Source: a virus
IMG/VR virus record: IMGVR_UViG_3300019752_000005
Location: 1 to 64,000 of that record
DNA length: 64,000 nucleotides
Strand: one strand, 5' to 3'
The translations under genes and the position numbers were made by a program. The notes below the pieces were generated by a model, which saw nothing but the letters and a program-made list of their open reading frames with translations, was not told the origin of the DNA and did not search any database. Of the stretch, positions 6,444 to 51,298 are shown in pieces (position 1 is the stretch's first letter; each line of letters starts with the position of its first letter).

Positions 6444-7163
6444 ATGTTGAAGATTAAAATAACACCACCTGCAAAATCGGTGGAGTATAAATACTTGGAT
6501 GTTGTGCATGATGCAGTAGTCCAAGCGTTCTTGAAAACTGGTGTAGAGGAAAGTAAGATCATAGGTCATAAGTCAGAGCCTTGGAATTTTGCTGTTGAAT
6601 CTTATTCAAAAAAAGAAAACGGGGAGTTCATTAATGTAGTGAAGTCTCTATTTATCTCGACACCATCATCAGAATTATCAAAGTTTTTGAGTGGCATTAG
6701 TTTATCTAATCTGAATTATACACGTTCCCTAACTGGTGATACCGTGAATTTTATTAATTCAGGTATTGAGATTGTACAAGACCCCATCTTACCTAACCAG
6801 CATACATTATCCGTTAATTGTATATCTCCTTTGGCTATTCGCAAGCAGGATAAAAAGAATCGAAGTTGGTATTCTGAATTTGGAGATCTTGATATTATTG
6901 CGGCGATCAATAAGCGTTTATCGCGTTTAGCTGACAGAGATATTAGTTTATTGGTATCGGTAGACAGTTTGTTCTTACGTAGTAATGAAAAGTACAGTGT
7001 TTATATTCCAATTAAAAAGAATAGTAATGGTAATGTAACATTTGTAATTGGTATGAAAGCCCCTTTAGTGTTGCAAGGGAGTGAAGAAGATTTGCGATTT
7101 GCTTGGTATGCAGGGATTGGGGAAAAAACGCGCATGGGATTTGGAGGTTTAAGTGAGTACTAA
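6444..7163 (+). CDS. cas6: CRISPR pre-crRNA endoribonuclease Cas6
   Basis: A 239-residue Cas6 of the RAMP superfamily, which would cut CRISPR transcripts at the repeat stem-loop and often stays on the crRNA. The diagnostic C-terminal glycine-rich loop GIGEKTRMGFG is at residues 224-234. The central ISPLAIR stretch (about 128-133) matches the conserved start of the second ferredoxin-like domain. H22 and H42 are candidate catalytic histidines. First gene of a four-gene operon; its 3' end overlaps the next gene by 11 bases. No CRISPR array is in this window, so its substrate must be elsewhere. Confidence 0.85.
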   Translation: MLKIKITPPAKSVEYKYLDVVHDAVVQAFLKTGVEESKIIGHKSEPWNFAVESYSKKENGEFINVVKSLFISTPSSELSKFLSGISLSNLNYTRSLTGDTVNFINSGIEIVQDPILPNQHTLSVNCISPLAIRKQDKKNRSWYSEFGDLDIIAAINKRLSRLADRDISLLVSVDSLFLRSNEKYSVYIPIKKNSNGNVTFVIGMKAPLVLQGSEEDLRFAWYAGIGEKTRMGFGGLSEY

Positions 7164-9636: not shown

Positions 9637-9638
9637 TA

Positions 9639-10622
9639 ATGGAACAATTTAAAAAATATTTAGCTGATTTGGATGCTATAACCACAACCGTGCAAATGGA
9701 TGGTAAAAAGGAATATATACAGCCCTCACTAAAAAATGCAGCTAATTTATCTATTGTGCTGATTCGTGAAGCTATTGCACCTGTTATTTTCCGTAATGCA
9801 GAAGAAGAAATCACTGATATTGATATCAATGGTCAATCTCATGTTCGTGGTGTACCCAATAAATTTAAATATCCTGAAAAAGGTCGCGGATTGCAAGTGC
9901 TTCGTGCTTTAGGGGTTGGGGGTAAGCATTCACAAAATAAAACGGTTTTATTAAAAGGAGAAAAACCTTCTCAAGCTTATGATCTAAATACGTTGGTGTT
10001 TGGTGACTCAGTTGTACAGGATGGGCGTGTCTTATCTGTGAAGGCGGCGGTAAATTATTCTGATGCATTAAGTATTGAACGTAAAGAATTGTGTGTAGAT
10101 AGTAGTTTTCATAATGCAGCAGCAGAGGATGGTAGTCTGTTTGACTCTGAAGTAAAAAAGAATAGTAACAGCTTGTTCACACGACATTTTATCCGTCCTA
10201 ATACATTAATGGTTCAAGTGATATCAACCCGTGGTAAACTTTTACCTATGATTGGTTTGGATCACTTACTCCTTAGTATTGGTGTTGCTGGTGCTTATGG
10301 TGGGCAAACCTCTGTTACAGGAACTAATATTAAAACTCATGTTGTTGGTATTTATGGGGGTACTTATGAAAGCGCGTTATGCTCACCTTATGAGTTGGTT
10401 AAATTATTTGGTGGAGAGAATAGCTTAAGTGTTGAGCAAGTGAAGGATAAGATTCACACAGAATTAAGTGGTGTCTATCGTGACAACTTAAATAGTGATG
10501 CGGTTGAAAATCACATTACTCAATTATTACATGATTTTGATAATAACAATCTTGATAAATCTTACCAAGAAAGTAAACCTGTTATTGATAATTACTTTGA
10601 TAGTTGGTTTGGTTCTAAGTAA
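9639..10622 (+). CDS. csc2: Type I-D Cas7 family backbone protein Csc2
   Basis: A 327-residue Cas7-type RAMP protein that would form the crRNA-binding filament. Csc2-like features in order: an N-terminal helix with LIREAIAPVIF, a thumb-like region with LNTLVFGDSVV and LSIERKE, then FTRHFIRPNTLMVQVIS, and the closing part GVAGAYGGQTSVTGTNIKTH, which corresponds to the conserved RYGA...G segment. It lies 2 bases after the large subunit and its stop overlaps the csc1 start (TAATG). No nuclease motif is expected or seen. Confidence 0.8.
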   Translation: MEQFKKYLADLDAITTTVQMDGKKEYIQPSLKNAANLSIVLIREAIAPVIFRNAEEEITDIDINGQSHVRGVPNKFKYPEKGRGLQVLRALGVGGKHSQNKTVLLKGEKPSQAYDLNTLVFGDSVVQDGRVLSVKAAVNYSDALSIERKELCVDSSFHNAAAEDGSLFDSEVKKNSNSLFTRHFIRPNTLMVQVISTRGKLLPMIGLDHLLLSIGVAGAYGGQTSVTGTNIKTHVVGIYGGTYESALCSPYELVKLFGGENSLSVEQVKDKIHTELSGVYRDNLNSDAVENHITQLLHDFDNNNLDKSYQESKPVIDNYFDSWFGSK

Positions 10623-11248
10623 TGAATACTATAACACCTATTAAAGCTACAACTTTAACACCATTTAGCTATCATAGCTTGATGGTGCAGGGGGGTACAA
10701 CAACATTACAGGGTGTTATATCAGACACCGCCATAATGTATGGGTTGTGCTCCACACTTGGTTTTATGCGTAACACTGTTGTATTACCTAGTAAGGATTA
10801 TAAACGCGATCTACTTAACATGCCTTTAAGAGCATCGGTGTTTACTGATGATAACCCAAGTTTATTACCGCCACTATATAGACGCATAAACTTGGAAGAG
10901 GAAGGTGGATATAAAAAGCAAGTGCAGGATACTGTAAAAAAAGGTAACCTTGGTGCTTTTCATCAAATACAGGAAGTTAATATCGGTCAAATTTTCCGCG
11001 GTGCTTTGTTTGGATTTGATATATTCCAATACACTGGATTAGATGAAGTTGTTATACGCGTGGGTCTACATCGAAATGGCATGATTAAACTTGAACGCGG
11101 TAGTGTTGATAGTGTTCGTCTTAATGCGCATACAGCTAAGTTATTTGATTGTGATTTAGATGTGGATAGGTATATGCTGCATAATATTCAATTAACATCT
11201 TGCTTATCATTACCAGATGCTAGCAATATTGTTTCTGACTGGAGGTAG
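10622..11248 (+). CDS. csc1: Type I-D Cas5 family protein Csc1
   Basis: A 208-residue RAMP protein of the Cas5/Csc1 group, expected to hold the 5' handle of the crRNA at the base of the complex. Supporting features are the N-terminal TPFSYHSLMV, the early YGLCSTLGF (like YALCYALG of Csc1), a conserved proline and tyrosine region, and the C-terminal VVIRVGLHRNGMIKLERG strand resembling the IRLGK segment of Csc1. Last gene of the effector operon. No cas1, cas2, cas3 or cas4 follows; short membrane proteins do. Confidence 0.75.
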   Translation: MNTITPIKATTLTPFSYHSLMVQGGTTTLQGVISDTAIMYGLCSTLGFMRNTVVLPSKDYKRDLLNMPLRASVFTDDNPSLLPPLYRRINLEEEGGYKKQVQDTVKKGNLGAFHQIQEVNIGQIFRGALFGFDIFQYTGLDEVVIRVGLHRNGMIKLERGSVDSVRLNAHTAKLFDCDLDVDRYMLHNIQLTSCLSLPDASNIVSDWR

Positions 11249-17855: not shown

Positions 17856-18046
17856 ATGAAATCTAATGAAAATACAGTTGTTAATTCAATATTTATAGGG
17901 GCGGCACTATTAGTTGTTGGTTGGGTTATGAATATTGTTGCTATTTTTAATAGCCCAGCATTAGGGGAGTGGGGGGGGGGATGGAAATAGCAAGGGTGAT
18001 AGGAGTATTTATTGCTCCAATTGGTGGGATACTAGGTTTCTTTTAG
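17856..18046 (+). pseudogene. Small membrane protein gene interrupted at a G10 run
   Basis: From ATG 17856 the frame encodes one membrane segment (FIGAALLVVGWVMNIVAIF) and then stops at 17990, just past ten consecutive G (17971-17980). The -1 frame continues as MEIARVIGVFIAPIGGILGFF to 18046, giving a natural second membrane segment. With 8 or 11 G the gene would encode one intact protein of about 62-63 residues, like other short phage proteins with an IGVF-PPIG-type ending. The tract could be a phase-variation switch, a ribosomal slippage site or a sequencing error. A TATAAT box lies at 17815-17820 and a terminator follows. Confidence 0.6.
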
Positions 18047-22566: not shown

Positions 22567-24591
22567 CTAACGTATTGGACATACACCAGTTTTACACTCG
22601 TCATCATCGAGAATATCACCACCGTAGTTATCAATATCAAAAGGCTTAAGCTTTGCCTTATATGATTCGTAACGCTCTTTGGTCACCACCTCTTGTGGTA
22701 AGTAGCTATAACCTAGGTCACGGGCTGTCTTTGTTGGATCATTTCGGAAAATAAAGCTAACACCAATATAGAAATCCCAATTATCTATAAACCAATCTAC
22801 AATATCCTGCACCTCACTAGCATCATAGGAAACAGTAACAGATACATTTTGCTGACACCAATACCGCATGTATTTCTTGTATCGTTCCAATTGAGTGATA
22901 GCACTTTCAATATTTATTTCCATTCCATCAACGTTGGTAAAGTTGATATTATCATATTCAATTGGTACAGCTACAATCACAGATTCAGGCTCATTTGGTA
23001 GAGAGCTAACCTCATAACCGCTTTCTTTCAACGCTACCAACATTTCATCATGAATACTGTATTTGATATTATTGATAATATAGCGTCCAAGTGGTAAATG
23101 AACCCCTTCTGTTGTGTCCATACACTTAGCCTGCGTCCCCGACGGCTTAACCGTAGTAACGTTTTTAGGGTACGGTGTTCCTAGTTCATCAGCCATTTTA
23201 TACGCATGGTATGTGGCATGGCGTTGCAGTGATTCCAATTCGTAACATGATAAGTCATCACGCATTGCAATTCCAGTTAATCCAACGCCACACAACCGTA
23301 AATGGTCATTATTTAAATTCCAAGCTTCCTGTAGGATTCCATCATCTAAATTAACACATGTTTGTCGGTAATTCGCGCGTGACATTATCTCAATTGCTCG
23401 TTTCAGCCCAGCAGAATCACCAATAAATCGACTTACATTAACATCAACTAAGTTACAGAAGCCTTTATTGGGAAGAATAACTTCACCGCATGGATTAAAG
23501 CCAGCAGCCCACTCAGCACGTTCTCTAGCATGTTTAGCATTTAAGAATGCAGGTTCAGAACCACCACTTCGAACCATTAGATTGAAAATATCTTCTAATG
23601 TATCGCGCGTCGGTTTATCATGAAATAATAAAGAGTTATTACTCTGCTCTCGATGTGAATTACCTTTTTCATACATACCTTCCTTAGCTGTTGCAAAAGA
23701 ATACCATTCCTCGTCACCAAAATCCATGATGGAAATTTCAGCACTACGTCGTGATGATAATGTTGTACCAAGCCAATTACATATATCTAAAATATCAATT
23801 TTTTTAAGCAATTCACCTGATCGCTTATTTAGAATTTGAGCAATATGTTCAAATGCTTTGGCAATTGATACATCACCACTACAAATCCAGCCATACCCTT
23901 TCAAACGTTCACCAGCAGGTCTGACTTCTGAAAAATCTAACACCAGTTTTTTAGCTGGGTATCTATGCACTAATAATTTACCAATAGACTTAGCCCATGC
24001 TTTAGCAGAGTCACCTACTTTAATAGTCCAAACACCTGTTTTCTTATTAAATGTTTCTACGTTATCTTCATAACCTTTATCCTTGCGCGTACTTCTAACC
24101 ACTTCAATTTCATTAATATGGCGTTTGAATCCTGTGAGTGTTCCAACTTCAGGTTTAAACCCTACACCACATCCTTGTAGTAATAACCAGAATAGATCAA
24201 CGGCATCATAAACAGTGTTAAGTTGGGTGAAGGCGCAATTGAATTGCGTTGCTTCAATCAACTTACTTAAATCAGTACCACCCAGCCAAAGCGTTCTACC
24301 ACTAACACCAGCTTTACCTTCCATGATTAACTTGCCCATCTCAACAAGTTCTATGATTTGCGAGTTATTCAACTCCTTACCTAATGCGCGTTCCCAAAGC
24401 CACTTTTGATGCCGCAGTACTCTTAAAACCACATCTTTCTTTTTCTCAAAATCATTGAGATATGGGCGACAATAAGAACGCTTAAAAACAAGCTGAGCGC
24501 GGAATGATGGTTTGTATTCTGGTGTGTAATTTAGAATGTCTTCTAATGCAGCTTTTACAGTGGTTGGTTTCAAATTTAATTCCTTTTTCAT
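22567..24591 (-). CDS. nrdJ: Adenosylcobalamin-dependent ribonucleoside-triphosphate reductase (class II, monomeric)
   Basis: A 674-residue class II RNR that makes dNTPs from NTPs using B12. C119 in FNCAFTQ sits at the position of the Lactobacillus leichmannii cysteine. The active-site loop NPCGEVILP and an LxGVGLTG segment are present, and the C-terminal pair CKTGVC would re-reduce the active site. The length fits the monomeric RTPR group. It ties phage dNTP supply to host or environmental cobalamin, and it does not depend on oxygen. Confidence 0.95.
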   Translation of the reverse strand: MKKELNLKPTTVKAALEDILNYTPEYKPSFRAQLVFKRSYCRPYLNDFEKKKDVVLRVLRHQKWLWERALGKELNNSQIIELVEMGKLIMEGKAGVSGRTLWLGGTDLSKLIEATQFNCAFTQLNTVYDAVDLFWLLLQGCGVGFKPEVGTLTGFKRHINEIEVVRSTRKDKGYEDNVETFNKKTGVWTIKVGDSAKAWAKSIGKLLVHRYPAKKLVLDFSEVRPAGERLKGYGWICSGDVSIAKAFEHIAQILNKRSGELLKKIDILDICNWLGTTLSSRRSAEISIMDFGDEEWYSFATAKEGMYEKGNSHREQSNNSLLFHDKPTRDTLEDIFNLMVRSGGSEPAFLNAKHARERAEWAAGFNPCGEVILPNKGFCNLVDVNVSRFIGDSAGLKRAIEIMSRANYRQTCVNLDDGILQEAWNLNNDHLRLCGVGLTGIAMRDDLSCYELESLQRHATYHAYKMADELGTPYPKNVTTVKPSGTQAKCMDTTEGVHLPLGRYIINNIKYSIHDEMLVALKESGYEVSSLPNEPESVIVAVPIEYDNINFTNVDGMEINIESAITQLERYKKYMRYWCQQNVSVTVSYDASEVQDIVDWFIDNWDFYIGVSFIFRNDPTKTARDLGYSYLPQEVVTKERYESYKAKLKPFDIDNYGGDILDDDECKTGVCPIR

Positions 24592-25747: not shown

Positions 25748-26878
25748 CTAAATCTGAATAGGCATAATGATGTGCTTCACGGATTTGTTAGTGTAACCGT
25801 GCACTGATACAAATGTTTTAGGGGAATCACAGTTCATTACAATTTCATCATCATCTATTGCTAACAAAGCTTGCTTTAAATACTTAAAGTTAAAACCAAT
25901 AGTCATTGAGCTAATACCATCACTAATAAACTCAACACCAATATTATCATTAGCTTTTTCATTGCTTGAATTAGCCATACTGATATCAAACTCATCTAAC
26001 CTCATGTTGATTACCAATCTCTGAGAACGTTGGTCTTTATCTCCAAGTGCAACAATACTCACCTTATTAATGGCTTGTAATAATAAAGCTCTCTTGCACT
26101 TATAAATACTATTAAATTGTTTATTTATAAAAAGCTCAATATCAGCAAACTTTTCATTTATCATTCTAGTTATTATTTTTGTGTTAGGTGTGCTAAAACT
26201 AGCATTGTTTTCACTTAACCTCATATCAACATCACCATCGCAAGATGATAGCATTTTACTTAATTCACCTACAGAATCGTAAGGTATTAAGCATTCAATG
26301 TTATCATTAGAATCACCTGTAGCCAAGTTAAAACCAGTGACAGATAATCTATGACCATCGGTTGCAGAGCATCTAACTGAATTATCTTTTGCATTTAACA
26401 TAACACAAGAGTAAAAGTTTTTTTCTCCATTCTTCATTATAATAAAGGATACATTACTTATCATCTTTAAAAGGAGATCACTATTAATTGATATTGTATT
26501 GGAGTCAACATCATCACGAAGCTCTGGGAAATCTGAGAAAGGTAACGTTTCCAAAGAGAAGGTAGAGCTATCTGAATTTACGATTACTCTGCCATTATCA
26601 TCATGTAATTCCATAAATTCACTAACATTACTTTGTGCAATCTTATGTAATTTATCTGCATTAACAGTTTTATCTATCCATTTCCCACCATTATTGATAA
26701 TACCTACATCCACTGAAACTTGCATTATGTTATTCAAGGCAAGCAGGGTAAGCTTGTTAGATCTTACAACTAATGCAACATTAGCACTAATACCTTCACC
26801 GCCAGTGACACCCACACACTTTTTTAATGCGGTACTAAGTTCTTTCCCACTAACTTTAAAATTTAACTTTTCTTCCAT
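25748..26878 (-). CDS. dnaN: DNA polymerase sliding clamp, beta (DnaN) family
   Basis: A 376-residue beta-clamp, the usual bacterial length with three repeated domains. Family marks include PFSDFPEL at the end of domain I, SATDGHRLSVTGF and IPYDSVGELSKML in domain II, and the C-terminal HIIMPIQI, which forms part of the ligand pocket (compare VVMPMRL in E. coli). It would tether the replicative polymerase, which is not in this window. The dispersed motif at 25868 lies in it, read as KQA. Confidence 0.9.
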   Translation of the reverse strand: MEEKLNFKVSGKELSTALKKCVGVTGGEGISANVALVVRSNKLTLLALNNIMQVSVDVGIINNGGKWIDKTVNADKLHKIAQSNVSEFMELHDDNGRVIVNSDSSTFSLETLPFSDFPELRDDVDSNTISINSDLLLKMISNVSFIIMKNGEKNFYSCVMLNAKDNSVRCSATDGHRLSVTGFNLATGDSNDNIECLIPYDSVGELSKMLSSCDGDVDMRLSENNASFSTPNTKIITRMINEKFADIELFINKQFNSIYKCKRALLLQAINKVSIVALGDKDQRSQRLVINMRLDEFDISMANSSNEKANDNIGVEFISDGISSMTIGFNFKYLKQALLAIDDDEIVMNCDSPKTFVSVHGYTNKSVKHIIMPIQI

Positions 26879-26944: not shown

Positions 26945-28420
26945 CTAACCAATAATATTTTGTTCTTGCATTAATTTGATACGTCTACCCACTGTTTGGG
27001 GTGATGCTCCAATTTCTTCTGCAATTTGTTTATTATTTAAACCCATTTGTTTAAGTTCTAATATCCGTTCATTAGAGTATTTACCTCTACCACGCTCAAT
27101 ACGTACAGCAGGAGTTTGATCAATATTCGCCATAAAACCAATACCACGGCTTGGCTCAGGCGAAGGTTTATTAGAGATTCTTTCTATATTACCACAAAAT
27201 TGTGCTTTTGCAGGTGCGTTAGATTTCCCATGTTGAGCTACAACTGTTTTACCTGATAATGTTTTCGTGTTTCGTGTCCTTGAAAACCATGATCTAACTT
27301 TACTTACTGTATCGTCCAGCACAGTATTTTCATTAATTTTCTTTTTCCGACTAGTATCAGCTTTGCTCAATTGAAGTACCATATTTCCACCCATAGAATG
27401 AATAACGATAAATAGCACAGAAACAAATACAAGCAAAGCTTGCGATGTTCTTAACTCATTGATATGTATACCTACCATACCAGTGAATATATTAATGAAG
27501 TCATTAAATACTTCATATTTTGTTTTATTGTTATTATTGCTTTCACCATAACCCACAGATTCGCCACTAACAACAGCATTTTTTTGCGCCTTATTCACCT
27601 CTTTTTTCAATTCTTGGTGTTTAGTATTTAACGTTAATAAATACGATTTACTCGAAATATCCTTGTTAATAGATATAACATCAGGGTTTTTTGAGTTAAC
27701 TGGGTTTAGGGATTCCATTTCAGACCAAGCTTGTTGTAGTTCAGCCTGATACCTTTTAGCAACACCACGAAAATCTTTATTTATTATTGAAGACCCATCC
27801 TTAGATAATATTTCCGAAACCAGTTTACTGGAAAACTCGCCAGCACTATTATTGGCTTTTTTATTTAAAATAGAATTATACACAATAATAGCCTCCTGAT
27901 GTTTTTTTGTTTGCTCACTTAATAATGACTTTCTTTTCAACTCAAGTTCTGATATTGATTGACTAGCTTGAGCAATATCTATTAATTTCGATTTATTTAA
28001 AGTTTCAAAATCCTTTAAGTCACTCCTAGCCTGTTCTAAATCTATTCTAGCCAGCTTAGCTTCTACCGAGTTGGCTGCCGCTTCTTTATTTGATGTATGG
28101 TAAACATCTCCAAAATAAATAAACATACCCATAACTGATAAAGCAAAGAAGGAAAAGTAGATAAATTTATATATACTAGCAAAAAAGTATTCACCATCTT
28201 CATCAGCCTTAAATGCAGCTTCAAATAGGTACGGTCTATAAACCACCATATATAAAGCCATACCAATAAAAATTGCCTGAGCGGCAAATTCATTTGATGA
28301 TAGTTTAGACCAAGCTTGTATTTCAATCCACCCTAAACCAAGACCTAATATAAAGTTACCTATGCTAACTTTATTTAATTTTTTATCCTTTTTTCTTTCT
28401 TTTAAAGACTTCTTTCTCAC
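26945..28420 (-). CDS. Membrane protein with coiled coil and C-terminal helix-turn-helix
   Basis: 491 residues. A very basic N-terminus is followed by about three membrane segments (up to residue ~105), a long charged coiled-coil region (about 110-270), another membrane segment (LLVFVSVLFIVIHSMGG, about 325-350) and a soluble tail ending in a resolvase-like HTH (RILELKQMGLNNKQIAEEIGASPQTVGRRIK). With four segments the tail should be cytoplasmic, so the protein could tie DNA to the membrane. No whole-length family is recognised. It lies in a unit with a transglycosylase and two secreted or membrane proteins. Confidence 0.6.
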   Translation of the reverse strand: MRKKSLKERKKDKKLNKVSIGNFILGLGLGWIEIQAWSKLSSNEFAAQAIFIGMALYMVVYRPYLFEAAFKADEDGEYFFASIYKFIYFSFFALSVMGMFIYFGDVYHTSNKEAAANSVEAKLARIDLEQARSDLKDFETLNKSKLIDIAQASQSISELELKRKSLLSEQTKKHQEAIIVYNSILNKKANNSAGEFSSKLVSEILSKDGSSIINKDFRGVAKRYQAELQQAWSEMESLNPVNSKNPDVISINKDISSKSYLLTLNTKHQELKKEVNKAQKNAVVSGESVGYGESNNNNKTKYEVFNDFINIFTGMVGIHINELRTSQALLVFVSVLFIVIHSMGGNMVLQLSKADTSRKKKINENTVLDDTVSKVRSWFSRTRNTKTLSGKTVVAQHGKSNAPAKAQFCGNIERISNKPSPEPSRGIGFMANIDQTPAVRIERGRGKYSNERILELKQMGLNNKQIAEEIGASPQTVGRRIKLMQEQNIIG

Positions 28421-28431
28421 TACATAATCCC

Positions 28432-29700
28432 CTAATAATTAATTGTTGATTCTAACTTAAGCCACTCGTCGGCTATACTATCATTATAAAATTGAACATG
28501 AATATGCCCACCTGTTGCCTTACTACTTGGGAACCTGTATTCATCCAACACAGTAACACATTTACCCTTACGCTTTGTTTCACAGAAACCTTTAAAATAA
28601 TTCTTTATCATATCCGTAACCTCTTTGCTTTTATGTTTGTTAGTGATAATAAGATCAATAGCTAATCCTTTACGATGCTTGCTATTATTATTGTATTTCC
28701 AATGGTGACCGTCATTAAACGCACTAAACCATTTCAACTTATCACCTAAATCCTTTTGTATTTTGTGAGCTAAATGAGTGATAGCTAGATGATGTTTCCC
28801 ACCTTCGTATGCTTCAGGACTATTAATTTTTAATCCTTTTAATGTTTTATTGAAGTTATGGTTTAACCAGTTGTTAGTAATAGTTTTAACATAATTAATT
28901 GTTTCAGGGTATTTTGTTAGTGCCCCTCTTTTCACACCTTGTAATCCTGCATTATACGAACCTAACGCATGTCTAACCGCTTTAACGTGATCCGATGGAA
29001 ACTCTTTATCCCAAATAACCAATAAGTGCTTGAATATAGTTGCTCCACAAGTCAAGCTGGTATCAACATCAAATAGCTTATTGGCATCATCAATACCACA
29101 ACCACCATTAGCTACTGAGTCTTTAGCTGTAGATGGTAGTACCTGAGTTAACCCTCTTGCACCAGCTTTACTAATAGCTCTTGGGGAAAAGATACTTTCT
29201 TTATGGATTAGGTAATGAAACAATATTGGGTCAATACCATACTGTCTAGCCACTAACTCAGCTTTTAATTTATTCTTCTTTAGATTTAATTCAAAATATT
29301 CTGGTAAACCAGCATAATTATAGATTGCATTGTTTAACGCTCTCCCCTTTTGATCACCTTGATATAATCTACCTTTTGCTGAATCCTTTACAACCAAGGC
29401 AGCATCAATCACATCTGGTGTTAAGTGTGGGTGCTCGTTCTTAATCTTATTCATTTTATCCTCAATTAAAGCAATCTGTTTTTTTAAATTGGATAAATCG
29501 CTATCAATCACTTTAACTTTCCATTCTTTATTCTCAACCTTTATCTTATGTGGTATATCTTCACCCGCAAGATATACAGCTAAAACTAGGATGCATGGCA
29601 TCCCAACACTAAATATTCCACCATAAATACTTTTTGATTTCAGAAATGTATAGGATGCCCATGCTACAAACAAAATCCCTAATACAATTTTTAACCACAT
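28432..29700 (-). CDS. Membrane-anchored lytic transglycosylase with M15-like peptidase domain
   Basis: A 422-residue cell-wall enzyme. Two N-terminal hydrophobic segments are followed by an SLT domain (HKESIFSPRAISKAGARGLTQVLPSTA with the catalytic Glu, then ALGSYNAG) and a C-terminal D-Ala-D-Ala carboxypeptidase-like domain (HRKGLAIDL with the H-x6-D pattern and GGHIHVQF). It would cut both glycan strands and peptide bridges. Lysis, DNA entry or secretion-channel assembly are all possible; the membrane anchor and the neighbours argue for local action. Confidence 0.75.
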   Translation of the reverse strand: MWLKIVLGILFVAWASYTFLKSKSIYGGIFSVGMPCILVLAVYLAGEDIPHKIKVENKEWKVKVIDSDLSNLKKQIALIEDKMNKIKNEHPHLTPDVIDAALVVKDSAKGRLYQGDQKGRALNNAIYNYAGLPEYFELNLKKNKLKAELVARQYGIDPILFHYLIHKESIFSPRAISKAGARGLTQVLPSTAKDSVANGGCGIDDANKLFDVDTSLTCGATIFKHLLVIWDKEFPSDHVKAVRHALGSYNAGLQGVKRGALTKYPETINYVKTITNNWLNHNFNKTLKGLKINSPEAYEGGKHHLAITHLAHKIQKDLGDKLKWFSAFNDGHHWKYNNNSKHRKGLAIDLIITNKHKSKEVTDMIKNYFKGFCETKRKGKCVTVLDEYRFPSSKATGGHIHVQFYNDSIADEWLKLESTINY

Positions 29701-30083
29701 TTCACAGCCTTTATTTGTTCTGATAGTTTATTTAAGTACTTTACTGTAGCCCTCTCATCATTAGCACCTAAATCATTCTCCTTAACTCTATTAATATTAT
29801 CTTCAACACCCATATATAAACCAGTGAGAAATTCAGAAAAAAGAGTTTTAAAGTTTTTATTTCCACTTAAGGAACTATGATAACCAGCTAGCCCTTTTAC
29901 ATATTTTATTGGGTTACCATCATCACTATATCCGCTTTGTGTTATAGCACTTCTCCGTACATCAAAAGCTACAATAGAACCCCTTAGCATTGCTCCAATT
30001 TCATCATAACAATCGACATTATTATCAGCAGATAAATTTAATGGAGCTAAAAGTACCACCACAAATAAAACCATCTTATTCAC
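29691..30083 (-). CDS. Secreted or periplasmic protein
   Basis: 130 residues with a clear N-terminal signal sequence (MVLFVVVLLAPLNLSA). The mature part has two cysteines, one near each end (CYDEIG and KCG), which may pair. It overlaps both neighbours, so it belongs to the transglycosylase unit. No family recognised. Confidence 0.55.
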   Translation of the reverse strand: MNKMVLFVVVLLAPLNLSADNNVDCYDEIGAMLRGSIVAFDVRRSAITQSGYSDDGNPIKYVKGLAGYHSSLSGNKNFKTLFSEFLTGLYMGVEDNINRVKENDLGANDERATVKYLNKLSEQIKAVKCG

Positions 30084-30409
30084 ATTATCATCCTTCTAAC
30101 TAATTCCAAAATTCCAATATTTTCACCAGCAATTAACATCATAACTACCATCTTTAATATATCAGCCACAGTTGTCACGATTAGCATCAGTAGTATAACA
30201 TTTAGCCAATGTAGTACCACATCAACTATGGAAAGGAATTTTCCATATCTTGTGGAATTATTAAACCCGCTTTTAGCTTTGTTGGAATAATTCCTTATAT
30301 CATTTATAAATATTTTGGAATCACGTTTCCATCTATCATAAAACAACCTAAACCATGATCTATCTTTAACTGGTACCTGCTGGTTCTTATTTGTCTTTTT
30401 CTTTGACAT
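30080..30409 (-). CDS. Basic membrane protein
   Basis: 109 residues: a strongly basic N-terminal half, then two close hydrophobic segments (WLNVILLMLIVTTVADILKMVVMMLIA). No family recognised. First gene of the four-gene leftward unit. Its coding sequence carries many TGGAAT/ATTCCA elements. Confidence 0.5.
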   Translation of the reverse strand: MSKKKTNKNQQVPVKDRSWFRLFYDRWKRDSKIFINDIRNYSNKAKSGFNNSTRYGKFLSIVDVVLHWLNVILLMLIVTTVADILKMVVMMLIAGENIGILELVRRMIM

Positions 30410-30967
30410 TAAATAAACCTAAATGTTATATTGGAAGCAACCAACACTTGAAAGTTGATTCCAATATTGTTAACAGATCATTGCATGGAATTATACCAAC
30501 TTTTCAATTCCAAAGTCAATATTTTTATGGAATTAAATTCCATAACTTTTACTTATGGTTTTGTAGCGGAATCGTTATACATGGAATCGCTTATATAACA
30601 ATGAGTTGTATTATAGAATTCCATTTAATATGGAATATTCCACTATATTTTATATTTTAGAAGGAATTCCATAATGCCGATTCCATTGGAAGTATTCAAT
30701 AATGCGCGTGATATAGTGCATGAACAGTTTAGTAACTTTGATCATAGTTGCGTTTTAAAATTCCATCAAGATAGCACATTTAATATCGAAACAGGAAAGG
30801 AGGAAGCGATAGGTGTGCAGTCTTATGAATTTAAAGCTAAGAGGTTTAACTACACCAAGAAGGAGATGAATGACTTTAATTTTTCTGTATCAGATTTTAA
30901 GTTAAATGTTAATTTTGATTCCATTCCACTGGAACTACAGAACGTAATCAAAGATAAGAATGATTCC
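30103..30967. repeat. Dense cluster of TGGAAT/ATTCCA elements
   Basis: I count 24 copies of GGAAT or ATTCC in about 865 bases, 20 of them as TGGAAT or ATTCCA; fewer than one of the 6-mers would be expected. Some form palindromes such as GGAATTCC and TGGAATATTCCA. The cluster covers the start of the leftward membrane gene, the 264-base gap 30410-30673 and most of the rightward gene. The gap itself holds no other clear feature. It may be a multi-site binding region such as a regulatory, partition or packaging site. Confidence 0.75.
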
Positions 30968-31084
30968 AACAAAATAATCCAGGTTGGAACTGTGGTTGTT
31001 GATGATGATTTGGTTATGCAGGTTGAAGATATAGTTGTGTTACCAAAATACATAAACATGGAAATATTTCTTAGGCAGCAATAA
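30674..31084 (+). CDS. Probable head-closure / neck protein
   Basis: 136 residues. The layout (N-terminal helix, FNIETGKEE beta turn, FKAKRFNYTKKEMNDF, then VDDDLVMQVEDIVVLP and a final MEIFLRQQ strand) resembles phage neck proteins that close the head and bind the tail completion protein. The similarity is structural in flavour and no strict motif exists, so confidence is moderate. It stands alone on the plus strand within the TGGAAT cluster and is followed by a bidirectional terminator. Confidence 0.45.
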   Translation: MPIPLEVFNNARDIVHEQFSNFDHSCVLKFHQDSTFNIETGKEEAIGVQSYEFKAKRFNYTKKEMNDFNFSVSDFKLNVNFDSIPLELQNVIKDKNDSNKIIQVGTVVVDDDLVMQVEDIVVLPKYINMEIFLRQQ

Positions 31085-31095
31085 ATTTTAGGTAT

Positions 31096-31123
31096 AAAAA
31101 AACCTCAATTAAGAGGTTTTTTT
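31096..31123. terminator. Bidirectional rho-independent terminator
   Basis: AAAAAACCTC pairs with GAGGTTTTTT around a short AT loop. It lies between convergent genes and works in either direction. Confidence 0.85.
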
Positions 31124-31492: not shown

Positions 31493-32476
31493 TTATTTCA
31501 TGATTTGTTTTTTGTAAGATTCAAAGTCAACGTCTTTGTATCCAACTCTGAAATATCGAGGGTAGTTTTCACTTTCAATAGCACTTTGTAATTTTTTACG
31601 TGTGTGATGCGTGTCATCTTTTGATGCAGCGTCGCTTAATGTTTTAAAAACTCCGTTAGGTGTTACAAGCAAATAACTGATATCAGGGATAGGTTGATAC
31701 TTATCTGGGTTAACAATAAAATCTTGTAATAAATACTTGTCAAGCAGTTTACGATAACCTTTCTGTTTTCCATTAACACTATACCATTTAGACCATAATG
31801 ATGAAGTGACATTCTTTTCTAAATAATCACTTGAAATATCAACACCAACTTTCTTTGGTTGATCTGTTGATGTAAAAATACCATGTGGTGTGACGTACAA
31901 GATATCATCTTTAGTGTAGATACCGCAAAGCTCAAAACTTAAGCGATCAATATCACTAACAATGCTTAGACTGGAAACCATTTCCTTAACTTTTGCTTGA
32001 TGAAGGTCTTCAATCGTTTTGAATTTGTTGCCTTTATCATCTAAAACATAGGTCTGATTAGTTTGTTTATTAGATAGCTTTGAGCGTGTTAGTGTGATTG
32101 GAAGACTGATAGTGTAACTTTCGTTATCACTTTTCTGGCTTGCTAGGTAATCATTAATTAATTCTAACACTTTCTTAGGGATTGTTGTTAATTCTTTCTT
32201 GCATTGATTCTTGAGTGATATGTAAGATTTTAACATCTCCTTATCTGTGATAACTAATTGAACCGATGTAGCTTTAGATGTTTTTTTGTATGATGGATTT
32301 AAAGGTAGTTTTTTAACTGAATTTAAATCAGGTTTCCTGTTTTTCACCTGTGATGATAAAATCAATTCCATTACACCTTTACCAAATGATATGTTTTCTT
32401 CAGCACATAAATCAGCAAATAATTTAGTTGAGTTTGATTTAGTATCGAATGCTATGTTTGTTTTAACTGGTTTCAT
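31493..32476 (-). CDS. Protein with VTPxGxF repeats, possible DNA-binding
   Basis: 327 residues. Two segments, ILYVTPHGIFTS (middle) and YLLVTPNGVFKTLSDAAS (C-terminal), are followed by helical stretches. Such V-T-P-x-G-x-F repeats occur as DNA-binding units in phage proteins and next to homing-nuclease domains. No nuclease motif is seen. A good promoter precedes it, so it is expressed separately from the ProQ-like gene upstream. Confidence 0.45.
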   Translation of the reverse strand: MKPVKTNIAFDTKSNSTKLFADLCAEENISFGKGVMELILSSQVKNRKPDLNSVKKLPLNPSYKKTSKATSVQLVITDKEMLKSYISLKNQCKKELTTIPKKVLELINDYLASQKSDNESYTISLPITLTRSKLSNKQTNQTYVLDDKGNKFKTIEDLHQAKVKEMVSSLSIVSDIDRLSFELCGIYTKDDILYVTPHGIFTSTDQPKKVGVDISSDYLEKNVTSSLWSKWYSVNGKQKGYRKLLDKYLLQDFIVNPDKYQPIPDISYLLVTPNGVFKTLSDAASKDDTHHTRKKLQSAIESENYPRYFRVGYKDVDFESYKKQIMK

Positions 32477-32520: not shown

Positions 32521-32548
32521 GTTATCAAACAGTGTTGTAAGTTGTCAA
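32521..32548 (-). promoter_or_regulatory. Sigma-70-like promoter
   Basis: On the minus strand, TTGACA (32548-32543), a 16-base spacer and GATAAC (32526-32521), 45 bases before the gene starting at 32476. Confidence 0.5.
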
Positions 32549-32943
32549 TCACTTTTTTGATATTTTTTTGCTAAAATAAATTTAGCCTTTTCAATTTCCC
32601 TCTCCACCACTGGCTCACAGATAGATAAATCTAGGTTATACTTATTTTTTATATATAGTATAGATGTTAAGTACTCCTTTCTTAGTTTCCAACCAACGAT
32701 GGCTGCACGTACTGTGTTCAAGTTAATTTCACTCAAGTTTGCTTTAAAATAAGCTACAACCTGACTACCAATATTATCTGATAATGGCATATTACGTCTA
32801 AACACCGTAAATTCCTTTTTTAAGTGGTTTATTAACTTGCGCCTAGCTTCTTTTTTCTTTCGTTGATTGTAGGTTTTCTTATTTGGGTTTGTAACCCTAA
32901 TACTATTAAATGTTTTAGTTTTCTTTTTCTTGTATTTAGTCAT
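32545..32943 (-). CDS. ProQ/FinO-family RNA chaperone-like protein
   Basis: 132 residues. A Lys/Arg-rich N-terminus is followed by a domain matching the ProQ/FinO pattern: LINHLKKEFTVF, PLSDNIGSQVVAYF, then INLNTVRAAIVGWKLRKEYLTSIL and KYNLDL (family: PL.IGI..DI, LR.AL..W..R..YL, G..R.dL). Members bind structured sRNAs and mRNA 3' ends. A phage copy could guard phage sRNAs, perhaps the candidate at 20178-20307, or interfere with host RNA networks. This assignment is by pattern only. Confidence 0.6.
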   Translation of the reverse strand: MTKYKKKKTKTFNSIRVTNPNKKTYNQRKKKEARRKLINHLKKEFTVFRRNMPLSDNIGSQVVAYFKANLSEINLNTVRAAIVGWKLRKEYLTSILYIKNKYNLDLSICEPVVEREIEKAKFILAKKYQKSD

Positions 32944-38229: not shown

Positions 38230-38855
38230 TGTTCATCTCCTATTTGCAAATCACTACCAAAGTGATAATGCGTGTAACGTTTGTAACTTCCATTAGCGTC
38301 TTTAATTGATTCACTAATAATTTGAGGTTGATGTCTTTTGTTGAAATCCTCATTTGCGGAACAAATTTTATCAAACTCTGACTCACTTGTAAAGCTATTT
38401 TCAGGTAAATTTCTAAAAACTTGCTCTTCATTTTTCTTTATTTTTTCATAATCAACAATGGCGCAAAACTTCATGCCAATATAGTCTAATGCACTCTTGG
38501 GTAAAGCCCCTTGAACACCATTTGCTAGCGCAATACCGCCAATACGTTTCATATCTTTGTCCATGCGAGCCGCCAGATATTTTTCCGATCTATCATCATC
38601 AATAACCAGCTTGCTTTTTGGATGTATTACCTGCCTACCCCACAGCTCTAAACGCAAGCTGGTGTGTTTAAAGATAAACTTCTTATTATCGTGCTGCTGA
38701 TTCAAAACCTTCAGCGTCAAATTTAGCGACGGTCTAAGTTTGGAATCATCCTCCATATTGTTAATTTTAGCGTCAACTATTTCAAACAGGTAAACCCCCT
38801 TGGATAGCAACACCTTGGTAAATGTAGCGTGATTATAATAAGATATGTTTTCCAT
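38220..38855 (-). CDS. Unknown protein of the recombination module
   Basis: 211 residues from ATG 38855, overlapping the primase stop (TAATG). A strand-rich N-terminal half (GVYLFEIVDAKI, LNLTLKVL) suggests an OB-like or phage DUF fold. It lies between the primase and the Sak4-like ATPase, so a replication or recombination accessory role is likely. Carries the dispersed motif at 38608 and a near-copy at 38651. Confidence 0.5.
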   Translation of the reverse strand: MENISYYNHATFTKVLLSKGVYLFEIVDAKINNMEDDSKLRPSLNLTLKVLNQQHDNKKFIFKHTSLRLELWGRQVIHPKSKLVIDDDRSEKYLAARMDKDMKRIGGIALANGVQGALPKSALDYIGMKFCAIVDYEKIKKNEEQVFRNLPENSFTSESEFDKICSANEDFNKRHQPQIISESIKDANGSYKRYTHYHFGSDLQIGDEQWV

Positions 38856-41476
38856 TAATCTACAACCCCCCAATACAATCTTAATTTAGGACGACCCGCC
38901 TTACTGGTGCCATCTTCGTTCTTATTTACCACATTCTTTAATGTGATAACGTGATTTTCTATTAAGTCAGCAATAATTCCATCCCTAACAACCTGATTAA
39001 TATGCTTTGTCATTTCTCTCAAGTCGCGCTTCCACATGCTACCACGTTTCTTTATGATTAATTCTATTTCTTTAACATACCCTTCATGTTCATTCTTAAC
39101 AATATTAGCATTAATAAAGTTAACCATATTTTGTGTTAAAACCATTGATAAACCCATACCCCATTCTGCATCAGCTAGAGATATTGATGGTGATACTGGA
39201 TTCTTTAATGTTGCAGATATCATTGCTAATTTAACACCAGAAGCATAACATCTTGAGAAACATATGTTAGATACAGCGCAAGATTCTCCCACAACCCGTT
39301 CCTCATGAAGATACGTTTCCATTTTTTGAAGATACTGATCAGCGTTTGTTTCAACACCTTCACTATCTTTTTCCATAATTAAAGATGGCACTATCTCGAA
39401 AGAATTAAAAACCTCATTTGCTTCACCGTCGGCACCAACTGATATATCAGGCATGTCTCCAGATGATCCTGCGTCATTAGCTCTATTGAAAATAGCCTTT
39501 AATTTATTAGATATTTTATCTGGAACATTGGATGCACTGAACTTTACTTTATCATAATATGATCTAACTGATTTTTTAGCACTTTCATCCCCACCCACTA
39601 GAAATATCCTTGCTGCAAAACCATTTAATGTATCCTCTTTGTTTAACATTCCTCCCAGTGGTTCTGGTGCTGAAACAGCGTATATATTAAATTGCGGTTT
39701 CACCACTGTTTTAATATCAGGTCTGGACATGGCAACATCAGGAGCAAGGTCATAGCTACTTGCTGAATAAAGCTCAGTGCAGAGACCCTTTACATCAGAT
39801 ATCATTGGATCTTTACCACCCCATTTCACACCAATTTCATCTGTAATTGATATGCATACAGGCTGCTTTTCAGTTAAATAATTCCTTAAAACTGCTGTTG
39901 ACTTAAATTGACTTGGTGCTATGAGGTGCTCACTACCATTACATGCTGTGGTGACCATGCTTTTAACACATCTTAAGCTGGCATCCTTTCCCATGCCCGG
40001 CCCTAATACACTTATTGTGTAAATATTTGGGTAAAGCTCGTCATGACTATAACCCCTGCCCATTAAAACTGCTGTTGCTGATATAGCTGAAAACATTGCT
40101 AACGCAGGCTGTTTTACGCGGGAACCCCCCATCCACTCAATAACATCTTTAATTGTTTCTGGTGCAGTATCAATAAATTTTCTTGGTATCGTAAGATCAA
40201 CATCGTTATTTCGCCTACCAACCCCTTTATTCTTTTTTGTTGCTGCTTTTTCTTTTTTTGGTGCAACCTTCTTCGCTTCATTATCTTTTTTATCTTGTTC
40301 CTCCAGTTCCTTTTCGATAACTGAAAAATCCACAATAGTTGAATGTGGCTTCCTTTTTTGTCCTTTCTGTATTCCACATAACGCAGCAGCACCATTAACA
40401 GCTTGAACCCAAGACTCCTTCCCCACACCAAAAGCAAGTATTCTATATACATCGAAAGCGTCATGTGTGTTTTTACCATTTGCTGATAAAACATCGGAGC
40501 CATGATGTGAAAAAACAGTGTTGGTTTTTCTGAATATTTTTACACCAGCCAAACCTGTAGTTGATGCAGGGCACTTGTAACGCTTACCATGCTTTGTGTA
40601 ACCATATTGAAGTAATAACTCTTCAAGTTGAAACTGGTTATTAAAAGCATCCATAACTAATGACATATAGTCATCATTAGAATTATTGTTGATAGGGCGG
40701 GGTGCTAACTTCACATCTTCATATTCTTCATCTTCTTCATTAGCTTCTGCTAGAGATAGCAACTCATTTAAGCTTGATGTTGTGTGAATCTCGCCAGTAT
40801 AGGGATAAAACGTACACATTGAAGCCTCTGATTTTTCGGTCGCGTGTTTCCAAAATCCAGCTAAAGCCATAATTCTAGCTAAATTATGAATCTTTTTATC
40901 AGAACCAAAAATACTGATAAGGTCTTTCTGTGAACGGGTAAACATATCCACAGGAAAATCTTTTACTATCCAATAGAAATGCGCTTTACCTTTGCTGCTT
41001 TCAATATAAAATGAAGGTTTAATATTGTATGCGTTAACTTTTGCTAAATGGGTTTCTAAGCTATCAGCTTTTTCATCACAATCAATATATAATGATGTGA
41101 TACTTGTGATGTCTTTATTTGCACACATTAACGGATATTCATCACACTTATCATCTATTTCATCATCACTTAACCGCTCAGAAACAGGTTTACAGGCGTT
41201 ATCCATTTTTATTTGCTGTCTAATCCTTAGATTTTCTTTATATCGAATACCTAATTCTTCACCATTGCAGCCATTAACAACAAAATAAATATTGTAACCC
41301 TGTCTATTTAACTCTAATAGTTCATCACCACACTCATATATTGTCCCGTACAACGCTTTTGATGTGTGATTTTTTTTATTAATATACCTAAACTCTATTT
41401 TAGAGTTATCTAAACCAAGCGCAGCTAAGTGACTAATAGCTTGCTTTATATCCTGCCTCTTGTGCGGCTCACGCAT
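38855..41476 (-). CDS. AEP-type primase fused to a DUF3987-like helicase/ATPase
   Basis: 873 residues. The N-terminal third is an archaeo-eukaryotic-type primase: TSLYIDCDEK provides the paired acids, PSFYIESSKGKAHFYWIV the strand and His, and LARIMALAGFWKH the last motif. A zinc-like region (CPAST...HHG) and a charged linker follow. The C-terminal half has a P-loop-like GPGMGKDASL and SITDEIGVKWGG, as in DUF3987 primase-helicases. It would both prime and unwind. First gene of the replication unit. The motif AGCTTGCTTT at 41438 is near the start. Confidence 0.8.
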   Translation of the reverse strand: MREPHKRQDIKQAISHLAALGLDNSKIEFRYINKKNHTSKALYGTIYECGDELLELNRQGYNIYFVVNGCNGEELGIRYKENLRIRQQIKMDNACKPVSERLSDDEIDDKCDEYPLMCANKDITSITSLYIDCDEKADSLETHLAKVNAYNIKPSFYIESSKGKAHFYWIVKDFPVDMFTRSQKDLISIFGSDKKIHNLARIMALAGFWKHATEKSEASMCTFYPYTGEIHTTSSLNELLSLAEANEEDEEYEDVKLAPRPINNNSNDDYMSLVMDAFNNQFQLEELLLQYGYTKHGKRYKCPASTTGLAGVKIFRKTNTVFSHHGSDVLSANGKNTHDAFDVYRILAFGVGKESWVQAVNGAAALCGIQKGQKRKPHSTIVDFSVIEKELEEQDKKDNEAKKVAPKKEKAATKKNKGVGRRNNDVDLTIPRKFIDTAPETIKDVIEWMGGSRVKQPALAMFSAISATAVLMGRGYSHDELYPNIYTISVLGPGMGKDASLRCVKSMVTTACNGSEHLIAPSQFKSTAVLRNYLTEKQPVCISITDEIGVKWGGKDPMISDVKGLCTELYSASSYDLAPDVAMSRPDIKTVVKPQFNIYAVSAPEPLGGMLNKEDTLNGFAARIFLVGGDESAKKSVRSYYDKVKFSASNVPDKISNKLKAIFNRANDAGSSGDMPDISVGADGEANEVFNSFEIVPSLIMEKDSEGVETNADQYLQKMETYLHEERVVGESCAVSNICFSRCYASGVKLAMISATLKNPVSPSISLADAEWGMGLSMVLTQNMVNFINANIVKNEHEGYVKEIELIIKKRGSMWKRDLREMTKHINQVVRDGIIADLIENHVITLKNVVNKNEDGTSKAGRPKLRLYWGVVD

Positions 41477-43972: not shown

Positions 43973-44253
43973 TGCCTGATATAAGTTTTTACACGGTCAA
44001 GATTACCACAGCTAATGGAGTAACCACCAAAGTTCCATTTCATTTTATGGAAAGTCATCACACAGATGATAGCGGGTTATCAATAAGAATGATTATGGGA
44101 TATTATGATCACACCGTGGATGATGGCGTATTTAAGACGTATGATAATTGCGGCTACTACACATTAACCCCTGATAACTGTATAAATTACGAAGAGGTGA
44201 GAAACATTATTAGTAACTTTTTCAATCTAGCTTGGGTATGCGTAAATGAGTAG
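43972..44253 (+). CDS. Unknown small protein
   Basis: 93 residues from ATG 43972 with AAGGAG upstream. His-rich middle (ESHHTDDSG). No family recognised. See the short relative just upstream. Confidence 0.45.
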   Translation: MPDISFYTVKITTANGVTTKVPFHFMESHHTDDSGLSIRMIMGYYDHTVDDGVFKTYDNCGYYTLTPDNCINYEEVRNIISNFFNLAWVCVNE

Positions 44254-44482
44254 AGACATTGAGTTTCAGCGTAGTGAGTTGTTATTTAATCTCACTGAAG
44301 ATATTCTTGTTCATATGGAGGATAATAATATCACTAAACTTGATTTAACCAGAAAAATCAATAAATCTGGACTATGGGTTACTAGGTTTTTTAATGGGGA
44401 TATAGATATTACTATCTCCCAATTAAATGAAATTTGTTTTGCGTTGGGTGTGAAGCCTATTTTTGAGATTAAGGAGAAGTGA
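44246..44482 (+). CDS. Cro/CI-type helix-turn-helix regulator
   Basis: 78 residues. NNITKLDLTRKINKSGLWVTRFFNG is an XRE-type HTH and TISQLNEICFALGVKP is the usual following helix. It may regulate the surrounding unit or act as an antitoxin-type repressor; no toxin is adjacent. Confidence 0.65.
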   Translation: MSRDIEFQRSELLFNLTEDILVHMEDNNITKLDLTRKINKSGLWVTRFFNGDIDITISQLNEICFALGVKPIFEIKEK

Positions 44483-48962: not shown

Positions 48963-49706
48963 ATGATTTTAAGCAGAACACTAAAAATGCAGCCATGGGA
49001 ACACGGTTTCATTGAAGGGGAAACAGAAAAAGAATATAGGGACTTACTAACTTATATAGAAATGGGTGTAAAGCGTTCTTTACGTAAGCTATGGACTGCG
49101 AATCATGCTAAGGACGAGAAGAATAAAGGTACATACCCATCATGGTGGGGTAATAGAGCAAAGGAGTTGAAGTGGGAGCGTAGGGCTATTGCTAACGATA
49201 TACATAAAACTCAACAGGCTATGATAAACGCTCAGAAAGAAGCTAAAAAAACAAATGAAGAAATGATTTATAGGGAAAAACAATGGCTTAGGGTTGTTAG
49301 TAAGAAATTAAAACGATATGAAGATATGGCTGATAATAACCAAGATGACCAAATATCACCTACTGATATGAAAGATTTAGGGTTGGCAATGAAAACTGTT
49401 CATTCTGAGTTGGAACGCCACCAAGGATTGGGTCAGTACGATCTAAATGATGTTAATAAGGTAGTGGAATTATCTATGTTAGAACCAGATTGGGTTTCAG
49501 ATAGTATTGATCCAGAAAAGAAAGCTGTTAATCTTACTTGGCAGATGTCATCAATAAATCAATTTGGAATGCTTACCAACAATACTAAGCTTGCATTAGG
49601 CACAAATGTGTATATGCAGAAGATGTTAGAAGTTGATGGTGATGAATATATTCAGTCTATAACTACACCAAAGCCGACAGCAACAGTAAGTAGGAAAGAT
49701 GATTAG
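48963..49706 (+). CDS. Probable terminase small subunit
   Basis: 247 residues, five bases before the large terminase gene. The N-terminal EYRDLLTYIEMGVKRSLRKLW plus SWWGNRAKELKWERRA is like the DNA-binding start of phage small terminases. A long charged helical centre would form the oligomerisation part. The assignment is mainly by position. Confidence 0.55.
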   Translation: MILSRTLKMQPWEHGFIEGETEKEYRDLLTYIEMGVKRSLRKLWTANHAKDEKNKGTYPSWWGNRAKELKWERRAIANDIHKTQQAMINAQKEAKKTNEEMIYREKQWLRVVSKKLKRYEDMADNNQDDQISPTDMKDLGLAMKTVHSELERHQGLGQYDLNDVNKVVELSMLEPDWVSDSIDPEKKAVNLTWQMSSINQFGMLTNNTKLALGTNVYMQKMLEVDGDEYIQSITTPKPTATVSRKDD

Positions 49707-49711
49707 TTAGT

Positions 49712-51298
49712 ATGGGGTACTTTAAAAAAAAGAGAAAGAAGGTAGATATTGATCTATCCCAATCTAACATAGATCTACCCATGCACGATAAGCAGATTAT
49801 TGCATTTAATACTTTTGCAAACGAAATATTATATGGTGGTGCGCGTGGTGGTGGAAAATCTCTTTTATTAAGGTATGCTGCAATAAAGTGGTGTTTAGAT
49901 GTTGATGGTATTGAGATTTATATATTTCGTAAAACTTATGGTAATGTTATCAGAAACCATGTGTATGGTTCATTAGGTTTTAGTGCAATACTCGAACCAT
50001 TAAAAGCTTTTGGTGTTAGAATAATAACAAGCCAATCACCTATGGTTATATTCCCTAATGGAAGTAAAATAATCCTAAGTTACCTTAGAAATATGGCTGA
50101 TTATGATAATTATCACGGGATCGAAATGCCTGTTGTCATGTTTGACGAGCTAACGCAATTTCCGCAAGAGCTTTACTCTTTAATTAAAGGTAATCTGCGT
50201 ATGACAAATATAGAAATACCAGAAAAATATAGTTCTCAGGTTCTTATTAAGCAAGCTGCTGAGCAAGGGGTTGAATTACCAGATACATATAGTTTTTTTC
50301 CTAGAATAATATCAAGTTCAAATCCAACAGGAATCGGTCACAACTGGGTGAAATCAAACTTTGTTGATAGGTGCGGTAACGACATGGAGTTAAATATCAT
50401 ACCTAAAGATGAAGGTGGCATGGTGCGTCAATATGTTCCTGCAACAGTGTATGACAACCCCCAATTAATGAAGGACAGCCCAAACTACATCCACAATCTA
50501 AAATCTCTACCACCAGATAAGAGAAGGGCGTACTTAGAAGGTGACTGGGATGTTACATCAGGTGGTGCGGTAGATGATGTTTGGGATAGGAATATTCATA
50601 TTGTTAAAGCGTTTGATATACCACCAACTTGGGTGGTTTTTAGATCTCTTGATTGGGGTGAAGCACACCCTTACTCAGTGGGCTGGTGGGCACGTTCAAA
50701 CGGCGAAAGTGTTAAGTTAAAGAATGGCTTAACTGTAACCTATCCAGCAGGTACAGTATTTCGTATATATGAGGACTATGGGTGCGCAAATCCAGATAGA
50801 GAGCCTGATAAAGGAGTTAGGTTAACAACAACACAAGTTGCTAGACGTGTGTTAACTATAGAAGAAAATCTTGGTATAAGAAGCGCATTTGGTATTGCTG
50901 ATGGGCAAATATTTAGCCCAAATAACGGTAGTTCTTTATATGAAGGTTTTGAGAAAAATGAAGTGTATTGGGTTGCAGCAGATAAGTCACCAGGTTCACG
51001 TAAAATAGGATTATCTCTATTAAAGGCTATGATGAAATCATCTGTAGATAGAGATGATTATATAGTTAGAATGCAACAAGGCGATCATGTTCACCCGCCA
51101 GAATCAACTCATGAAGAGTCTTGTTTCTACGTATTTGATAGATGTAAGCAGTGGATAAGGACAGTGCCAAGCCTACCATTAAGTAAGCTTGACCCTGATG
51201 ATGTTAATACAGATGCTGAGGATCATATTTATGATGAAACTCGCTATGCGCTAATGCATAAACCATCACACGCTTCTATATTAAGTATGGATTATTAA
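49712..51298 (+). CDS. terL: Terminase large subunit
   Basis: A 528-residue packaging motor. Walker A GGARGGGKS (about 42-50), Walker B VVMFDELTQFP and a coupling SSNPTG form the ATPase; SLDWGEAHPYSVGWW, GIADGQIF and the final AEDHIYDETRYAL give the RNase H-like nuclease acids. It cuts concatemeric DNA and pumps it through the portal (59328-60812), which is 8 kb away instead of adjacent. Its 3' end overlaps a convergent gene by 18 bases. Confidence 0.95.
   Translation: MGYFKKKRKKVDIDLSQSNIDLPMHDKQIIAFNTFANEILYGGARGGGKSLLLRYAAIKWCLDVDGIEIYIFRKTYGNVIRNHVYGSLGFSAILEPLKAFGVRIITSQSPMVIFPNGSKIILSYLRNMADYDNYHGIEMPVVMFDELTQFPQELYSLIKGNLRMTNIEIPEKYSSQVLIKQAAEQGVELPDTYSFFPRIISSSNPTGIGHNWVKSNFVDRCGNDMELNIIPKDEGGMVRQYVPATVYDNPQLMKDSPNYIHNLKSLPPDKRRAYLEGDWDVTSGGAVDDVWDRNIHIVKAFDIPPTWVVFRSLDWGEAHPYSVGWWARSNGESVKLKNGLTVTYPAGTVFRIYEDYGCANPDREPDKGVRLTTTQVARRVLTIEENLGIRSAFGIADGQIFSPNNGSSLYEGFEKNEVYWVAADKSPGSRKIGLSLLKAMMKSSVDRDDYIVRMQQGDHVHPPESTHEESCFYVFDRCKQWIRTVPSLPLSKLDPDDVNTDAEDHIYDETRYALMHKPSHASILSMDY

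Follow-up and report, generated by a model that had tools for sequence, protein, structure and literature searches.

On plasmid pSM19035, the sites of omega, an RHH ParB protein, are 5'-WATCACW-3' heptads that overlap the copS, delta, and omega promoters; the 7-10 copies adjoin one another, and need to do so (PMC9499535). In Cluster A mycobacteriophages, operators and stoperators are asymmetric sites bound by a monomeric repressor of lytic promoters, and the stoperators are spread genome-wide (PMC9283540). Cluster O mycobacteriophages carry >30 copies of a 17-bp dyad of unknown function, partly inside genes (PMC4351075), showing that unexplained phage motif sets exist. In phage 186, the regulator Apl binds between the early promoters pR and pL at direct repeats one helical turn apart (PMC7498355).

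The locus described here, a cluster of the hexamer TGGAAT/ATTCCA in a tailed phage, resembles the pSM19035 omega/parS arrays in that a short non-palindromic word recurs many times, in either orientation, over the promoters of flanking genes, which are predicted ones in our case. By analogy, its design would work most like that of these arrays; membership is not claimed. Unlike the plasmid heptads, the copies are non-contiguous, with starts 5-158 bp apart, and neither ParA nor an RHH_1 protein was found in the record. Numerous copies of a short asymmetric site also recall the operators and stoperators of Cluster A phages (PMC9283540), but here they form a single cluster, in both orientations, confined to one locus instead of being dispersed over the genome. 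The Cluster O dyads are likewise many copies of a short motif, partly in genes; there, an invariant 7+3+7 palindrome occurs genome-wide, whereas the present motif has an asymmetric core of 6 bp and forms one cluster. As in phage 186 (PMC7498355), sites lie between two opposed promoters, predicted in our case, but without the helical phase of the Apl repeats.

Genome Setting

The window, i.e. the whole stretch of DNA that was analysed, comprises bases 1-64000 of a linear virus record of 76,625 bp (IMGVR_UViG_3300019752_000005; G+C 34%). In the search for relatives, phage records were queried with DNA and protein sequences, and IMG/VR and GTDB genomes were scanned as well; in these collections, no homologs of the proteins of the two genes flanking the cluster were found. 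Among the matches listed, the best ones for the ribonucleotide reductase were from marine podoviruses (≤61% identity), which lacked the rest of the leftward unit, and the best identity for the terminase was 42% (41% in IMG/VR). For the portal, with all matches taken into account, it was 32%. Judged from sequence identity, the core proteins appear to have only distant relatives. The positions of features are collected in Table 1.

The record also carries a phage-borne type I-D CRISPR effector operon (6444-11248, plus strand) for Cas6d (252 bits), Cas10d (563 bits), Cas7d/Csc2, and Cas5d (295 bits). The Cas10d match begins at model position 224, so that the protein seems to lack its N-terminal part, which is probably the HD nuclease. 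Cas1, Cas2, and Cas3 were not seen among the proteins scanned, nor was a CRISPR array seen among closely spaced direct repeats. At the non-coding right end of the record (76359-76446), a 24-nt repeat bearing hairpin-like TGTGGTA/TACCACA arms is present in two exact copies 64 bp apart.

Table 1. Features of the cluster region and of the rest of the window
Feature	Position	Strand	Remarks
TGGAAT/ATTCCA cluster	30103-30968	both orientations	20 exact copies
Divergent intergenic region	30410-30673		264 bp; densest part, 10 copies
109-aa putative membrane protein	30080-30409	-	first gene of leftward unit; membrane segments by eye
136-aa orphan protein	30674-31084	+	single-gene rightward unit
Leftward sigma-70-like promoter	30490-30519	-	TTGACT-N18-TATAAT, TG extension; predicted
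Rightward sigma-70-like promoter	30403-30432	+	TTGACA-N18-TATATT, TG extension; predicted, weaker
21-bp perfect dyad	30525-30545		TTATGGAATTAAATTCCATAA; just upstream of leftward -35
12-bp perfect dyad	30631-30642		TGGAATATTCCA
Long RNA hairpin	30600-30680	+	over Shine-Dalgarno and start of rightward gene; folding versus shuffles
Two-way terminator-like hairpin	31090-31123		AAAAACCTC-AATTAA-GAGGTTTTT; after rightward gene; seen directly in sequence, absent from scan list
327-aa protein	31493-32476	-	N-terminus ribbon-helix-helix-like by eye; no profile match
ProQ/FinO-like protein	32545-32943	-	just under Pfam cut-off (26.4 versus 27 bits)
491-aa candidate binder	26945-28420	-	hydrophobic segments (membrane segments by eye), coiled-coil-like middle, C-terminal HTH
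78-aa Cro/C1-type HTH protein	44246-44482		candidate binder
Class II ribonucleotide reductase	22567-24591
Sliding clamp	25748-26878
Primase	38855-41476
Terminase	48963-51298
Portal	59328-60812

A Single Cluster of TGGAAT/ATTCCA

The first-pass annotation had reported twenty copies of the word, in both orientations, in about 865 bases between 30103 and 30967. All 20 were recovered by exact counting; the start was correct, and the last copy reaches one base further than reported. As had also been proposed, the copies cover a divergent gene pair in coding and non-coding DNA, with five in the leftward gene, 10 in the gap, and five in the rightward gene. The whole record contains 111 copies, 91 of them outside the cluster. 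The rest of the record predicts ~1.04 copies per 865 bp, dinucleotide shuffling of the window yields 0.76, and base composition alone gives 0.59, corresponding to enrichments of ~19-fold, 26-fold, and 34-fold, respectively. The initial estimate of over thirty times expectation thus holds under the simplest model, base composition, but not against the shuffles or the rest of the record. Comparison of density along the genome excluded a comparable concentration elsewhere, because every other 865-bp window outside the cluster held at most five copies.

When every 6-mer was scanned over the whole record with window sizes of 300 and 865 bp, the TGGAAT/ATTCCA cluster was the most extreme among all hexamers (Poisson log10P -18.4 per window). 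Related words came next, and the best unrelated 6-mer was a poly-C run with a log10P of -10.4; this run, five overlapping CCCCCC at 17971, is the sole other strong hexamer cluster in the record. If 5-of-6 cores (TGGAA or GGAAT) are counted, 32 sites lie in 30080-31084. A tRNA and an Rfam RNA were looked for in the follow-up of the cluster and rejected as explanations.

A second, smaller grouping, with four ATTCCA copies within 110 bp, was seen at 23232-23341, inside the ribonucleotide reductase gene, a density reached in none of 60 simulated genomes. The gene as a whole contains five copies versus 1.27 expected from its codons (P 0.0012). Whatever binds the main cluster might use this group as an auxiliary site.

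Selection on the DNA Word

For the two flanking genes, synonymous codons were redrawn at the phage's own usage in 20,000 trials. The five copies in the leftward gene compare with 0.33 expected, and none of the trials gave at least five (P <5e-5). For the rightward gene, 0.92 copies were expected, and at least five were reached in 10 of 20,000 trials (P 5e-4). In neither gene are the copies accounted for by the encoded protein; therefore, selection acts on the DNA word itself. Other intergenic DNA contains the word at 0.85/kb versus 1.24/kb in genes, i.e. it is not enriched. A genome-wide regulatory motif was thereby ruled out, and the function is local, not that of a genome-wide regulon. The cluster is genuine, an array of a short word under strong selection that is confined to one divergent promoter region. 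An 89-aa open reading frame across the gap (30391-30660) was judged to be spurious, its TTG start lying inside the opposite gene.

Site Architecture and Predicted Promoters

The flanks of the copies are diverse. The only bias concerns the next (+1) base, which is T or C in 16 of the 20 copies versus 47 of the 91 outside. A long or tandem repeat unit was sought in the cluster, and only two-copy weak families were found. The distance from start to start is not fixed, and helical phasing was rejected, no signal being present at 10.5 bp. Many of the copies had been said to form palindromes. The core does occur in five perfect dyads (11-21 bp), but close opposite-orientation pairs only marginally exceed the number expected from density (12 versus 7.8, P 0.03-0.09). 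The palindromes are therefore mostly a by-product, and the palindrome was rejected as the defining unit.

The two promoters in Table 1, which are consensus matches only, face each other. As in a multi-site operator, copies overlap promoter elements: the one at 30486-30491 lies on the predicted leftward -10 and the one at 30507-30512 in the spacer of the same promoter, beside the -35. A near-miss site, TGGAAG, is located at 30432, at the predicted rightward promoter. That promoter call is the weaker one because its -35 lies in coding DNA, at the start of the leftward gene, and it may be a coincidence. Across the 76.6-kb record, 12 promoter-like sites match the consensus at ≥11 of 12 positions, and the two in the cluster are the only ones among them with an extended -10. 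Overall, the number of promoter-like sites within 28.3-32.6 kb equals that expected by chance (20 versus 22.6).

Candidate Binders and Proposed Mechanism

The leftward unit begins with a putative membrane or exported set (26945-30409, minus strand) consisting of proteins of 109 aa and 130 aa, a 422-aa transglycosylase, and the 491-aa HTH protein. The sliding clamp and ribonucleotide reductase genes follow directly downstream, an odd mix for one unit.

We infer that the copies form a local multi-site operator array, built on a short and asymmetric recognition site and serving local transcription control, and we put the probability of this reading at roughly 0.5. A DNA-binding protein recognizing a word of about WTGGAATY would bind many of the copies in a cooperative manner, from the divergent promoter region outward into the genes on either side. 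The bound array would control the leftward promoter, which would feed the membrane-protein, transglycosylase, sliding-clamp, and ribonucleotide-reductase unit, as well as the single rightward 136-aa gene, most likely by repression until the products are needed. The multi-site protein-binding region that had been suggested at the outset is in our opinion the best explanation of the synonymous-codon results in both genes, the two orientations without a common flank or long repeat, and the copies on the -10 and in the spacer of the predicted leftward promoter with the 21-bp dyad just upstream. The rank of the cluster among all hexamers, the two extended -10 sites at the locus, and the local occurrence of the word with its +1 bias point in the same direction. 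On the other side, many cooperative repressors have a fixed spacing or helical phase, which is absent here; the copies go 300 bp into both genes, beyond the needs of simple promoter occlusion; and the promoters are consensus matches in a region where such sites occur at chance frequency.

Among the roles originally offered for the region, autoregulation or local regulation fits best, with several candidates for the binder. The 136-aa product of the rightward gene is a candidate autoregulator by position; profile and homology searches matched it to no family, and its AlphaFold model, made without an alignment, is unusable (pLDDT 36). The 491-aa protein, which had been proposed to nucleate on the cluster, does have a C-terminal HTH (PF13412, 24.2 bits versus a cut-off of 21.9), the helices of which have a pLDDT of about 89 in the predicted structure. 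Foldseek returned generic HTH matches, none with E <0.001. However, nothing ties this HTH, or that of the 78-aa Cro-like protein, to the TGGAAT word. A host factor is the remaining candidate.

Alternative Explanations

An origin, a membrane tether, or a centromere-like site is unlikely, although it ranks first among the alternatives. The array would then nucleate an initiator, a partition protein, or the 491-aa protein, and the genome would be held at the membrane or start replication here. Such a role could account for an array that continues across coding DNA, beyond the needs of a promoter, and would suit an adjacent unit in which a membrane-HTH protein, its HTH fold supported by the predicted structure, stands beside the sliding clamp and ribonucleotide reductase. 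Partition, one of the roles first suggested, lacks a partner gene: neither a ParA-type ATPase (PF13614; 14 of 14 controls matched) nor RHH_1 (PF01402) was matched in the record, which may be a fragment. Of the hallmarks of a pSM19035-type RHH ParB centromere, contiguous repeats, a ParA-type Walker ATPase, and a profile-matched RHH protein were not found in this possibly incomplete record, in which the 327-aa protein looks RHH-like by eye only. The direct repeats of about 17-22 bp typical of an iteron origin are likewise missing, and GC skew tracks gene direction without an origin-like switch at the locus. The missing link between the HTH and the word weighs against nucleation of the 491-aa protein as well. 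It would be a long shot to propose that this protein, anchored in the membrane, binds the array heading its own operon, tethers the genome, and couples transcription of the clamp and ribonucleotide reductase genes, or replication, to anchorage.

A function at the RNA level is improbable. Opposed copies would form hairpins in the two leaders; these would mask the ribosome-binding site of the rightward gene and might engage the ProQ-like protein, whose match is weak. The fold of the rightward leader (30440-30680) is far more stable than that of shuffles (z -4.0), but with the sites kept in the shuffles the whole leader falls to z -0.9. Most of the leader structure is therefore a by-product, because site-keeping shuffles fold nearly as well. 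Compared with such shuffles, the hairpin at 30600-30690, a segment picked after inspection, was still more stable (z -3.1), as was the leftward leader (z -2.4). In the two genes, in which copies are enriched, the extra structure was not significant (z about -1 and -0.6), and a DNA-level role is therefore preferred. Translational control by the ribosome-binding-site hairpin is possible in addition to it.

Similarly doubtful is a host regulator, in place of a phage protein, that binds the array or is titrated by it. A clear phage repressor gene is absent beside the array, where the 136-aa neighbour has no family match, but the word was matched to no regulator in our analysis, and the phage itself encodes HTH proteins.

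We consider it very unlikely that the word has no function and was spread locally by mutation or recombination, since the flanks differ, a tandem unit was not found, and two unrelated genes contain more copies than their codons predict. Least credible is a packaging (pac) site for the small terminase subunit, also among the first suggestions: some phages, such as P1, mark pac by repeated hexamers, but this role is disfavoured because the terminase genes are 18 kb away, and the array lies on a promoter region.

Significance

If the cluster is indeed a local operator array, a single phage promoter region would carry unusually many copies of an uncharacterised binding word, TGGAAT. Known systems in which copy number, not spacing, sets the response are few, and this one would extend them by a design with dispersed sites.
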